A stretch of 40,460 nucleotides of DNA from Candidatus Shapirobacteria bacterium CG_4_10_14_0_8_um_filter_39_15 (GTDB taxonomy: Bacteria > Patescibacteriota > Microgenomatia > UM-FILTER-39-15), in the NCBI GenBank assembly GCA_002784465.1, contig PFLE01000003.1, forward strand, positions 1 to 40,460, read 5' to 3'. A program made the position numbers and the translations under genes. The notes below the pieces were generated by a model. It was not told the origin of the DNA. It did not search any database and saw nothing but the letters and a program-made list of their open reading frames with translations. Numbering within the stretch: position 1 is the first letter of the stretch; the number at the start of each line of letters is the position of its first letter. Below are positions 21,970 through 40,230 of this stretch, one piece after another.

Positions 21970-22090
21970 AAGTATATCAGTTGATCAGATAATCGGGTAA
22001 GGTAAAACAGAGATCGGCATATCGGTAATCCTTACTGATCTCTAATCTCTGATTTCTTATCCTGATATTCTGGTTTTACTGATTTACTAA
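21970..22090. repeat. Dispersed imperfect palindrome, copy E3 (both arms)
   Basis: agtatatcagttgatcagataatcgggtaaggtaaaacagagatcggcatatcggtaatcc / ttactgatctctaatctctgatttcttatcctgatattctggttttactgatttacta. Confidence 0.8.
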
Positions 22091-28845: not shown

Positions 28846-28860
28846 CAAGTTCGTAACACA

Positions 28861-28914
28861 AGCCCCGTTGGGTCAATTGAAGTATTAATTGATTCCGGCG
28901 GGGTGTTTTTTTGG
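28861..28914 (+). terminator. Terminator after paralog A
   Basis: ccccgttgggtcaattgaagtattaattgattccggcggggtgttttttt. Confidence 0.8.
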
Positions 28915-30815: not shown

Positions 30816-30828
30816 TAGTAAGATATAA

Positions 30829-30879
30829 ACCCCGCTTGGGTCAATTGAAGTTTTGATTGATTCCGGCGGGGTGTTTTTT
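30829..30879 (+). terminator. Terminator after paralog B, near-copy of the paralog A terminator
   Basis: ccccgcttgggtcaattgaagttttgattgattccggcggggtgttttttt. Confidence 0.8.
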
Positions 30880-30891
30880 TGGCTTTTAGCT

Positions 30892-36529: not shown

Positions 36530-37648
36530 ATGAAAAAAATTCTTCTTTTCCTTGTCTTGCTGGTTTTATTCTTAATTCCTTGCCGCGTATATTCACAAAG
36601 CGTCGGGGAATTACAGCAACAGATTGATGATTTGACCCAAAAGGTAACTGACTTGCAAAATCAAGGAAAAACTCTCGCTAGTCAAATTACCTATATGGAT
36701 AGCCAAATTAAACTAACCACTTTAAAAATTACCCAAACCCAAAGCCAAATTGACGATTTGACTTTAAAAATCGGCCGTTTGGAGGTTTCTTTGGACCAGA
36801 TGTCCGTAATTTTAAAAAGCCGGATTGCCGCAGCTTATGAGCAAGGTCAGCCAAATGTTTTGTCATTGTTCTTTTCTTCAAGTAAATTTGCCGATTTTTA
36901 TAACCGCTATAAATATTTGCGGGTGATTCAGATTAATGATAAAAAAATTCTCTATTCGATGGAGACGACCAGAACTAATTATGATGATCAAAAACAAGCG
37001 GTGGTGGCTTTAGAAACTAAATTACAATTGCAAAAAACGCAATTGGCGCAACAACAAACAGACAAAAAGAATTTATTAATTGTAACCAAAAATGACGAAA
37101 AGAAGTTTCAGGAATTATTAAAGAAAGCTTTAGCGGAGCTTGCAAGTTTAAAACGATTTAGTCAGGATAATCCCGGTGGTATTTTACCTCCTCAACAAAG
37201 TCCTGACGGTTGGTTTTATAGCCAAAGAGATGAAAGGTGGGCGAAGCAAATGATTGGCGGATCTACAGAAACAATCTACGACGTTGGCTGTTTAATTAGT
37301 GATATCGCCATGATTTCAACTTTTTATGGGGACAGGAGAACTCCTTCGGATATTGCGGCGGACTCATCGAATTTTTTCTCCAATACGGCCTATATGGTTA
37401 GTCCTTGGCCTTCACAAGCGGGAAAAACATACACCGAATTATTAAATATGGACGCGGTTGATCAGGAACTTTCCGCCGGTCATCCGGTAATTGTTCATTT
37501 GAACTTAGGCGGGGACGGTCATTTTATTGTTCTCAAACAAAAAGACGGCGATGATTATTTAATTCACGATCCTTGGTTCGGGTATGATAAAAAATTAAAA
37601 GATTTTTATAGTGTGGCCGTGATTGATAAACGGGTAGTTTATAAATAG
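36530..37648 (+). CDS. PcsB/EnvC-like coiled-coil protein with C-terminal C39-like peptidase domain
   Basis: Signal peptide; coiled-coil LQQQIDDLTQKVTDLQNQ...FFSSSKFADFYNRYKYLRVIQINDKKIL; C39-like FYSQRDERWAKQMIGGSTETIYDVGCLISDIAMISTFYG...GHPVIVHLNLGGDGHFIVLK...LIHDPWFGY. Confidence 0.85.
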   Translation: MKKILLFLVLLVLFLIPCRVYSQSVGELQQQIDDLTQKVTDLQNQGKTLASQITYMDSQIKLTTLKITQTQSQIDDLTLKIGRLEVSLDQMSVILKSRIAAAYEQGQPNVLSLFFSSSKFADFYNRYKYLRVIQINDKKILYSMETTRTNYDDQKQAVVALETKLQLQKTQLAQQQTDKKNLLIVTKNDEKKFQELLKKALAELASLKRFSQDNPGGILPPQQSPDGWFYSQRDERWAKQMIGGSTETIYDVGCLISDIAMISTFYGDRRTPSDIAADSSNFFSNTAYMVSPWPSQAGKTYTELLNMDAVDQELSAGHPVIVHLNLGGDGHFIVLKQKDGDDYLIHDPWFGYDKKLKDFYSVAVIDKRVVYK

Positions 37649-37653
37649 TTAGG

Positions 37654-37684
37654 TTGTTATCATGATTTAAATCATCAGAACAAA
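37654..37684 (+). promoter_or_regulatory. Candidate operator, copy 1 (upstream of the TrpR-like gene)
   Basis: TTGTTATCATGATTTAAATCATCAGAACAAA; contains the perfect 14-bp palindrome ATGATTTAAATCAT (37662-37675). Confidence 0.7.
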
Positions 37685-38130
37685 TGACACAAGTTTCTAA
37701 ATATCCAATATCCGATAAAGTTTACCAGAGAATCGTAGAAATTTTCTTTAAATCTCTGGCCCAAATGGGAACAGGAACGGAAGCTAAAGAATTTATTCGC
37801 GATTTTCTTAGTCCAACTGAGCGGGTAATGCTTGCCAAGCGTCTAACGGTGGCTTTTCTTCTGGAAAAAAATTACGATTTTAGAACAATTAGTCACGTTC
37901 TGCGAGTAAGTTTATCTACCGTGGCGAGAGTAAATTTGGCAAGGAAATACGGTACTTCGGGTTACAAAAGAGTGATCGAAAAGATATTACGAGAAGAAAA
38001 AGTTAAAGATTTCTTTTTAGAGATGACCGAGGGGTTAAGCGACGTTGCGGGTCAAGGAAGAATGGGGAGTGGTGGTTGGAGATATTTGAGTCAAGAAATA
38101 AAGAAAAAACGTAAAGAAAAACCATTTTAA
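37684..38130 (+). CDS. TrpR/YerC/YecD-family transcriptional regulator
   Basis: IVEIFFKSLAQMGTGTEAKEFIRDFLSPTERVMLAKRLTVAFLLEKNYDFRTISHVLRVSLSTVARVNLARKYGTSGYKRVIEKI. Confidence 0.9.
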   Translation: MTQVSKYPISDKVYQRIVEIFFKSLAQMGTGTEAKEFIRDFLSPTERVMLAKRLTVAFLLEKNYDFRTISHVLRVSLSTVARVNLARKYGTSGYKRVIEKILREEKVKDFFLEMTEGLSDVAGQGRMGSGGWRYLSQEIKKKRKEKPF

Positions 38131-38131
38131 T

Positions 38132-38162
38132 TTGTTATCATGATTTAAATCATCAGAACAAA
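38132..38162 (+). promoter_or_regulatory. Candidate operator, copy 2 (upstream of the LTD-domain gene)
   Basis: Identical 31-mer TTGTTATCATGATTTAAATCATCAGAACAAA; palindrome at 38140-38153. Confidence 0.7.
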
Positions 38163-38969
38163 ATGCTTAGTTACCAAAAGGTTATTTGTTCTTTTTTATT
38201 TGCCTTAATCTGGATTTTGTTTTTATCGGGAAAAGTTTTTGGTCAAGTGGTCATAAATGAATTTTCTTCAAATTCAGATCCTGAGTGGGTCGAATTGTAT
38301 AATACTTTGGATTCCCCCATAGACCTGACAGGATGGTTTATTAAGGATGAAGTTCAAAACCCCAAAGTTCTTAGTGGAACCATTACTGGACATGGATATT
38401 TTGTTTTTGAAAACCGAGAGGGTTGGTTAAATAACAGTGGGGGAGATACGATCACTCTTTTGGATAATTCTTTACCTTCTGGACAAATTAACCAGATTAT
38501 CTACGGTAAATCAAACTCAATTGTGGGAACGCCCGCTTTTGATAAGAGTGCTGGTCGTAGTCCCGATGGTTCGTCAAATTGGGTAAATCAACTTGATTGG
38601 ACAAAGCTTAGCGCAAATCCTATTCCCCAAACTCCAACCCCGACGCCAACTGATATTCCCGAACCAGAAGATACGCCTACTCCGACTGCGACTCCAACTT
38701 CTGCTCCAACGCCAATACCAAAGCCAACGGTTACACCCACGCCTAAAAATACCCCAACCCCTTCGACTTCGCTCAGGGCAAGCCCGACGCGAGCCATAAA
38801 GGCAGAGGAGTCAGAGATCGTTTTGGCTGCTGTTACTTCTTTAACGCCGACAGACTTACCCGTTATCACCGAAAAGAATTCATACAATAACCTTTTTCCC
38901 TTTTTGGCAATTGGAACGGGAACCCTTCTTTTAGCAGTTTCCGCTGTTTTTGGCATACTTAAAAAATGA
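38163..38969 (+). CDS. Lamin-tail-domain (LTD) surface protein with Pro/Thr linker and C-terminal TM
   Basis: QVVINEFSSNSDPEWVELYNTLDSPIDLTGWFIKDEVQN...FDKSAGRSPDGSSNW; PTPTPTDIPEPEDTPTPTATPT; C-terminal TM. Confidence 0.88.
   Translation: MLSYQKVICSFLFALIWILFLSGKVFGQVVINEFSSNSDPEWVELYNTLDSPIDLTGWFIKDEVQNPKVLSGTITGHGYFVFENREGWLNNSGGDTITLLDNSLPSGQINQIIYGKSNSIVGTPAFDKSAGRSPDGSSNWVNQLDWTKLSANPIPQTPTPTPTDIPEPEDTPTPTATPTSAPTPIPKPTVTPTPKNTPTPSTSLRASPTRAIKAEESEIVLAAVTSLTPTDLPVITEKNSYNNLFPFLAIGTGTLLLAVSAVFGILKK
38758..38778. repeat. Short palindromic insert in CDS (ALSEVEG/LRSGQA-type)
   Basis: CCCTTCGACTTCGCTCAGGG within the LTD protein; antisense reads ALSEVEG. Confidence 0.6.
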
Positions 38970-39349: not shown

Positions 39350-39768
39350 GAACAGGAACCGTAATTGCTCTGTATGGAAATCTTGGTTCAGGAAAAACAA
39401 CCTTTATACAAGGTTTGGCAGTTGGTTTGGGTATCAAGGAAAGAATTCTTTCCCCAACTTTCGTCTTGATGCGAGAATATGAAATTTCACCTTCGAGGAG
39501 TCCATTCGGCCACCTCGGAGGTGGCGAGGCAACGACCTCGACTCCTGCGAGGTGTAGCACTTTATATCATGTCGATTTATATAGAATTAGAGACGAGAAG
39601 GATACTGAATCATTAGGTTTGCAGGAACTTTTGTCTGACCCAACCAACATAATTGTCATTGAATGGCCGGAGAAGATATCCAATATGCTATCTAAAAACC
39701 ATATAGATATTTATTTTAATTATTTGGAAGAAAATGAAAGAAAGATAACTATCAAAGTAAATCAGTAA
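39271..39768 (+). CDS. tsaE: tRNA threonylcarbamoyladenosine biosynthesis ATPase TsaE
   Basis: LRTGTVIALYGNLGSGKTTFIQGLAVGLGI...SPTFVLMREYE-[insert]-LYHVDLYRIRD...LLSDPTNIIVIEWPEKI. Confidence 0.93.
   Translation: MADNQEVITQSAFETQKLGEKIGADLRTGTVIALYGNLGSGKTTFIQGLAVGLGIKERILSPTFVLMREYEISPSRSPFGHLGGGEATTSTPARCSTLYHVDLYRIRDEKDTESLGLQELLSDPTNIIVIEWPEKISNMLSKNHIDIYFNYLEENERKITIKVNQ
39488..39554. repeat. Nested palindromic insert inside tsaE
   Basis: CACCTTCGAGGAGT (39488-39501) / ACTCCTGCGAGGTG (39541-39554), enclosing CCACCTC-G-GAGGTGG (39510-39524); encodes SPSRSPFGHLGGGEATTSTPARC. Confidence 0.65.
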
Positions 39769-39888: not shown

Positions 39889-40230
39889 ATGAAACTCTAC
39901 ATTAATACCAGTGATAATAAAAAAACCGTTGTTGGGTTGGATGACGTTCGGTTAAAAAAAATAACCGGCCCGGACAAATCCCAGCAGGTTCTACGATTGA
40001 TAGAAAATATCCTTGAGGACAAGAAAAAAACTCTACAAGACATTACTGAAATTGAAGTTGAAACCGGAGCCGGCCTACCTGCCGGTAGGCAGGGTTCTTT
40101 TACCGGCTTGCGGGTGGGGATTGCGGTTGCCAATGCTTTAGCCTGGGCTTTGAACATTCCGGTTAACAATCAAAAAATGGTAGAGCCGAAATACGAAGAG
40201 GAAAAATCATCTGCAGGATGTAAAAGTTGA
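39889..40230 (+). CDS. tsaB: TsaB-like protein (tRNA t6A biosynthesis), short form
   Basis: MKLYINTSDNKKTVVGL...VETGA-[GLPAGRQ]-GSFTGLRVGIAVANALAWALNIPV. Confidence 0.85.
   Translation: MKLYINTSDNKKTVVGLDDVRLKKITGPDKSQQVLRLIENILEDKKKTLQDITEIEVETGAGLPAGRQGSFTGLRVGIAVANALAWALNIPVNNQKMVEPKYEEEKSSAGCKS
40072..40092. repeat. 21-bp palindromic insert inside the tsaB core motif
   Basis: ggcctacctgccggtaggcag; GCCTACC-tgcc-GGTAGGC (40073-40090) and CCTGCC-ggta-GGCAGG (40078-40093). Confidence 0.75.

Follow-up and report, generated by a model that had tools for sequence, protein, structure and literature searches.

A TrpR-fold regulator gene bracketed by matched palindromes in Patescibacteria looks like a self-contained, possibly mobile unit

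Introduction

On a contig (PFLE01000003.1, assembly GCA_002784465.1) of Candidatus Shapirobacteria bacterium CG_4_10_14_0_8_um_filter_39_15, two exact copies of a 31-bp sequence stand on either side of a small gene for a TrpR-family protein. The original prediction, made from this 40,460-nucleotide stretch of DNA (the window), read them as sites of an autoregulated circuit that also controls the next gene, which encodes a surface protein. The question is whether the two copies serve two genes or one, which protein reads them, and whether they belong to the place or to the gene that they enclose.

The repeat in the window and its genome

A scan of the window allowing up to three mismatches found TTGTTATCATGATTTAAATCATCAGAACAAA as exact copies at 37654–37684 and 38132–38162 only, confirming both predicted positions; 100 shuffles of the window gave an expectation of zero occurrences of the repeated 31-mer. 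The 5′ copy ends on the A of the start codon of a gene (trpR below) for a 148-aa TrpR-fold helix-turn-helix (HTH) protein (37684–38130, forward strand; Pfam PF01371), the presumed binder of the palindrome. The 3′ copy begins 1 nt past the trpR stop codon and ends directly before the ATG of the downstream neighbour, which encodes an LTD-domain surface protein (38163–38969, forward strand; Pfam PF00932), so the copies do abut both genes as first described. The upstream neighbour encodes a secreted PcsB-like coiled-coil protein with a C39-like peptidase (36530–37648, forward strand; Pfam). Nearly the whole of the pcsB-like/trpR and trpR/LTD spacers is taken up by the repeat, and with the preceding TTA.. 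included, the block common to both copies is 36 nt long with 94% identity. Beyond these neighbours are FtsX on the upstream side and VanZ and TsaE on the downstream side. The 14-bp core is perfectly symmetric, as had been noted, but the symmetric unit is about 28 bp rather than 14, the whole 28–30 bp forming an imperfect palindrome.

Across the window genome (815 kb, 21 contigs) the exact 14-mer core occurs four times, and its reversed control pattern has zero matches. Besides the two sites at trpR there are two further exact cores, both intragenic: one in an FAD-type oxidoreductase ORF (C16:18088) and one in a glycosyltransferase ORF (C19:7277), where the copy is a near-perfect 30-bp palindrome.

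The window also holds other repeats. A CCTGCCGGTAGGCAGG palindrome lies at 40078–40093 in a tsaB-like ORF (peptide PAGRQG), with related CCTGCCGGCAGGCAGG copies elsewhere in the genome. Inside the LTD gene, TTCGACTTCGCTCAGGGCAAGC (38764–38790) resembles another short dispersed repeat that is found in frame in other ORFs of the genome, and a GC-rich inverted-repeat stretch at 39490–39560, apparently an extra segment, is in frame within tsaE. Two 55-nt repeats (28860–28914 and 30828–30882; 91% identical, with a GC-rich stem followed by a T run) are near two Thr/Pro-rich surface-protein genes, and imperfect 55-nt intergenic repeats occur at 22034, 32940, and 33407.

A TrpR-family protein with a C-terminal extension

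The encoded protein belongs to the Trp_repressor family (PF01371; 50.4 bits, cut-off 27). It scores below the equivalog cut-offs of both YerC/YecD, now HisR (NCBIfam TIGR02531; 35.4 vs 42.2 bits), and the trp operon repressor (TIGR01321; 21.3 vs 67.25 bits). YerC/YecD-type homologs, described earlier as poorly characterised, are also no longer entirely so: YerC is HisR, the histidine repressor, in Firmicutes (PMC9413887). An AlphaFold2 model (mean pLDDT 69) resembles the TrpR-like structures 3g1c, 3kor, 3frw, and 1trr, with TM-scores by target of 0.72–0.79, and the top matches in a Foldseek search with this model were all TrpR-like. The window protein has a C-terminal extension of about 40 aa that TrpR and HisR do not have. 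A Pfam search of the protein returned PF01371 only, with no nuclease or transposase domain.

HisR and TrpR control his and trp genes from sites of about 20 bp (PMC9413887). They share with the window protein the Pfam family and the fold, equivalent DNA-contacting positions, and palindromic sites with a lineage-specific consensus. Here, in contrast, the sites are about 28 bp long and surround the regulator's own gene; those of the window genome lie at trpR/LTD and in two ORFs, not as 20-bp operators upstream of his genes.

Matched palindromes across the family

The exact 31-mer has no match in GTDB contigs because its outer arms differ between lineages. A search among 59 relatives for CATGATTTAAATCATG (the core plus the next flanking bases, with at most one mismatch) found only two other genomes, and in both the palindrome lies on both sides of the orthologous trpR-like gene. 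The spacing between copies in the three genomes is 478, 479, and 487 bp, and the order pcsB-trpR-LTD-VanZ is kept. The expected conservation among relatives is thus borne out, with the palindrome retained at the orthologous locus in other families while the flanks vary. Taken alone, without the data from the wider family, this result would have confirmed that the copies are operators.

When 374 genomes of the class were searched with a profile (E ≤ 1e-15), 165 proved to have the TrpR-like family (up to 44% of the sampled class), a count that takes in unbracketed paralogs. For the bracketing analysis we collected about 120 distinct genes, mostly from the same class, and scored 114. Nearly all genes of the roughly 145–150-aa type carry a long palindrome just 5′ of the start and just 3′ of the stop. 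By our scoring a palindrome lies within 70 nt upstream of 69/114 genes, downstream of 68/114, and on at least one side of 92/114, about a fifth of members having none on either side; chance expectation is 1.1–1.6% from shuffles and 0.4% from windows 230–300 nt away. The median distance of the palindrome centre is 18 nt from the start codon on the 5′ side and 17 nt from the stop on the 3′ side. The members that carry a name belong to Levybacteria, Woesebacteria, Gottesmanbacteria, Daviesbacteria, and Shapirobacteria, all of them Microgenomates, and the phylum's other classes also contain a few bracketed members.

The two ends of a locus match each other far better than they match other loci, with core identities of 16.0/18 within a locus (5′ vs 3′ end) and 10.2/18 between loci. 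The general half-site up to the dyad is T-R-Y-T-W-Y-n-A-T-G-W-W-T-Y, or 28 bp in all, and the centre varies by locus (TTTAAA, TTCGAA, TCTAGA, TACGTA, ATCGAT, AATATT, and others). Several paralogs may occur in one genome, each with its own matched palindromes. The 118–120-aa YerC-like paralogs, including the window genome's own copy beside metG, lack matching brackets and are an internal negative control.

The palindrome follows the HTH

Distances between HTH sequences correlate with distances between palindromes (Mantel r 0.40, 0/999), and they still do so when the remainder of the protein is controlled for (partial Mantel 0.28, 0/999). The protein positions most informative on the half-site include 3 and 4 in the N-terminal arm, 64, 67, and 76–84, with 3, 64, 67, 77, 78, 80, and 81 among the strongest by mutual-information z-scores, which ignore phylogeny. 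Positions 67, 77, 78, and 81 align with R69, I79, A80, and T83 of E. coli TrpR. The TrpR-like family is present in 21/23 genomes that carry a strong ATGATTTAAATCAT palindrome, compared to 44% overall (p = 2e-6). Since the palindrome covaries with the HTH beyond general relatedness, and given this co-occurrence, we infer that the adjacent TrpR-family protein very likely binds it. To this extent the proposed autoregulated circuit is upheld: the palindrome is the likely binding site of the protein, and the position of the 5′ copy, at the start codon, suits autoregulation.

The positions of the copies, at the ribosome-binding region and directly past the stop codon, together with a possible 12-bp stem, could also suggest RNA hairpins at both gene ends acting as a terminator, translational switch, or processing signal. 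Mismatches of the G-U type are not enriched on the mRNA strand of the palindromes (48 vs 68 on the other strand); the symmetry is therefore a feature selected in DNA and not in RNA, and we rejected hairpins on this type of mismatch, leaving them a very small probability. The palindromes are AT-rich without a T tail and were not called as terminators, an Rfam search returned no family for the palindrome, and hairpins would leave the matching of the two ends and of the HTH unexplained.

The 3′ copy and the lone palindromes

An ordinary autoregulated transcription factor with a small regulon, the two copies being promoter operators of trpR and the LTD gene, would account for the covariation of palindrome and HTH and for the overlap of the 5′ copy with the start codon region. 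The 3′ palindrome is present at 39/65 loci with a co-directional neighbour and at 25/43 with a convergent one (p = 1). As its frequency does not depend on the direction of the neighbour, this palindrome is part of the trpR unit; the neighbours have no function in common. Most lone copies, moreover, lie at gene 3′ ends. The second copy thus appears not to be an operator of the LTD gene, contrary to the original prediction; in the window lineage that gene is a conserved neighbour outside the unit.

Lone copies show the same preference for gene ends. Of 54 strong ATGATTTAAATCAT sites, 8 are beside a trpR-like gene, 10 inside ORFs, and 36 alone between genes; of the last, 17/36 have a stop codon at most 40 nt away and 6/36 a start codon at most that far. 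For seven lone sites the surrounding 400 nt contain the 3′ end of a gene and no gene start, and at three loci (L193, Sua5-like; L033; L115) the palindrome itself provides the stop codon. All nine exact core sites in genome G053 are intergenic (P = 2e-7), which would suit promoter operators, and some of them precede genes whose products are secreted or in the membrane, but most are nearer gene 3′ ends than starts. With the bias of lone sites towards stops and the sites inside ORFs, we consider it rather unlikely that the copies are simply operators.

The same bracketing is seen around a few genes of other kinds: two ORFs in G010, a gene for an Exo_endo_phos protein in G309, and one ORF at L115. 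The G010 case is locus L034 (G010:C4), where, a short way past parB, three palindromes at 828, 1503, and 1991 surround two ORFs of 155 and 141 aa with no Pfam domain.

The three G010 copies near parB, together with one beside ftsZ and the sites inside ORFs, would suit chromosome-organising sites of the parS/Noc kind read by the TrpR-like protein. G053, G013, and the window genome do not show this pattern, and the gene is missing from half of the genomes of the class, so that we see only the slimmest chance of such a role. DNA uptake sequences were dismissed because the copies are far too few.

Change of place

About 105 loci yield about 140 clusters of neighbouring genes, in nearly random orientation. 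The window neighbours recur at few of these loci, the PcsB-like cluster (cluster 0) at seven, the window locus among them, and the LTD cluster (cluster 2) at four. We found 35 pairs of loci in which the gene can be aligned and the neighbours cannot; most alignments end near the palindromes and a few extend further. In the cleanest pair (L103/L104, from G129 and G167) DNA identity is 83.5% from −34 to +32 and ends at these limits. In G129 the unit adjoins a galU-secE-nusG block, which G167 retains (73%) without the unit; there the unit is elsewhere in the genome. We dropped the identity of the TrpR-like proteins in this pair (85%) as evidence of horizontal transfer because it is close to that of NusG (82%); the argument therefore rests on DNA identity (83.5 vs 73%) and on the different position.

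Genus mates were too diverged for empty sites to be recognised at the nucleotide level, so synteny was used instead. The folD-SIMPL spacer holds the unit in G132 and is only 46–79 bp long, without the unit, in four congeners. Between G254 and G312 the unit is 87% identical and the flanking cca and secF are 72–76% identical. Such filled and empty pairs are strongly diverged at the DNA level, which limits the view of any target-site duplication. At L117 (1980–2090) the 3′ end of cca is duplicated downstream of the unit, a possible integration footprint. A lone palindrome at L284 (1428–1450; G342) lies 50 nt upstream of a YciI-like gene and may be a relic; in two congeners this gene has a complete unit upstream.

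The bracketed gene thus seems to change its genomic position as a unit, though gene order in Patescibacteria is generally fluid and some of the shifts in context could reflect rearrangement of the surroundings of a gene that stayed put. In the window lineage the position is stable in at least four families (f1, f11, f14, f17), which is vertical inheritance. We saw no near-identical copies within one genome and no recent multi-copy burst, and the unit is therefore not a currently proliferating element.

Comparison with known systems

The closest parallel is REP/RAYT, in which palindromes lie on both sides of every rayt gene and change with the protein, while lone copies are mostly extragenic and often at gene ends (PMC2817692). 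Here, too, one small gene is bracketed by palindromes that covary with its protein, and lone palindromes are dispersed, mostly extragenic, and often at gene ends. The protein, however, has a TrpR fold and is not a Y1 HUH tyrosine transposase (PF01797). The palindrome is AT-rich, fully symmetric, and about 28 bp long, with no GT(A/G)G head in the half-site profile, and there are four copies in the window genome and nine in G053 against more than 100 per genome in REP/RAYT. The organisation parallels REP/RAYT with a pure DNA-binding fold in the transposase's place, and so we do not file it under REP/RAYT. The window genome has a RAYT-like Y1 transposase ORF of its own at L017 (G000:C19, about 76 kb), which scores 22.8 bits against a Pfam cut-off of 23.

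A mobile element of the REP/RAYT kind, its palindromes mobilised by the TrpR-fold protein itself together with a host nuclease, would fit the gene's place between two palindromes, as for every rayt gene (PMC2817692), the unit boundaries at palindromes, the copies at gene 3′ ends and inside ORFs, and the bracketed genes other than trpR in G010, G309, and L115. We think it unlikely, because the protein consists of a TrpR fold and a 40-aa extension without a nuclease or transposase domain, copy number is only about 4–11 per genome, and the intragenic copies are not clear insertions, adding just a few residues when aligned to solved glycosyltransferases and methyltransferases. A related and tentative reading, which we would not yet favour, is that Patescibacteria carry a new minimal class of mobile element whose TrpR-fold product recognises palindromic ends and causes or targets the movement of the unit and of bracketed passenger genes. 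An Xer/dif module was rejected, as different palindromes coexist in a genome and follow the trpR paralog; such coexistence also argues against the single recombinase of integron-like cassettes.

LacI, GalR, and lambda CI are autoregulators with two operators and a DNA loop. They resemble the present case in having two matched sites around the controlled gene; the difference is that here the second site comes after the end of the coding sequence and accompanies the gene when it changes position. Rickettsia palindromic elements are found within reading frames, and the occasional in-ORF palindromes described here, in one stop-free frame (xDLNH), are similar. As candidate insertions, though, ours are shorter, far fewer, and tied to a cognate DNA-binding gene.

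Discussion

We consider it probable that the window gene encodes a TrpR-fold autoregulator and lies between two matched sites for its own product, gene and sites together making up a unit that is stable in some lineages and moves in others. This unit would be self-contained, with a single trpR-like gene between the two repeats as its ends and a total length of about 510 bp, and a dimer of the encoded protein would bind the 28-bp palindrome. The computations show the bracketing, the match between both ends of a locus, the covariation with the HTH, where the unit ends, and its change of place; binding, self-silencing, and looping are predictions. With one site over its own translation start and the other just past its stop codon, the protein most likely silences its own gene, and it may bridge both sites into a loop. 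The unit would have been placed at many intergenic positions in Patescibacteria, giving multiple paralogs per genome; in the window lineage it has stayed downstream of the pcsB-like gene. Lone copies, mostly at gene 3′ ends, may be extra binding sites or relics of the unit.

Among open-licence papers we found no description of a palindrome-bracketed TrpR-like unit, and it seems to represent a type of regulator gene, self-contained and possibly mobile, that had not been described before. A family annotated merely as Trp repressor carries matched, co-evolving DNA sites at both gene ends, and so offers many natural protein–site pairs for decoding how TrpR helices read DNA. It may also represent a new route to gene mobility in reduced genomes with few known regulators, and would make it possible to ask directly if a protein that only binds DNA can act as specificity factor for a mobile unit.
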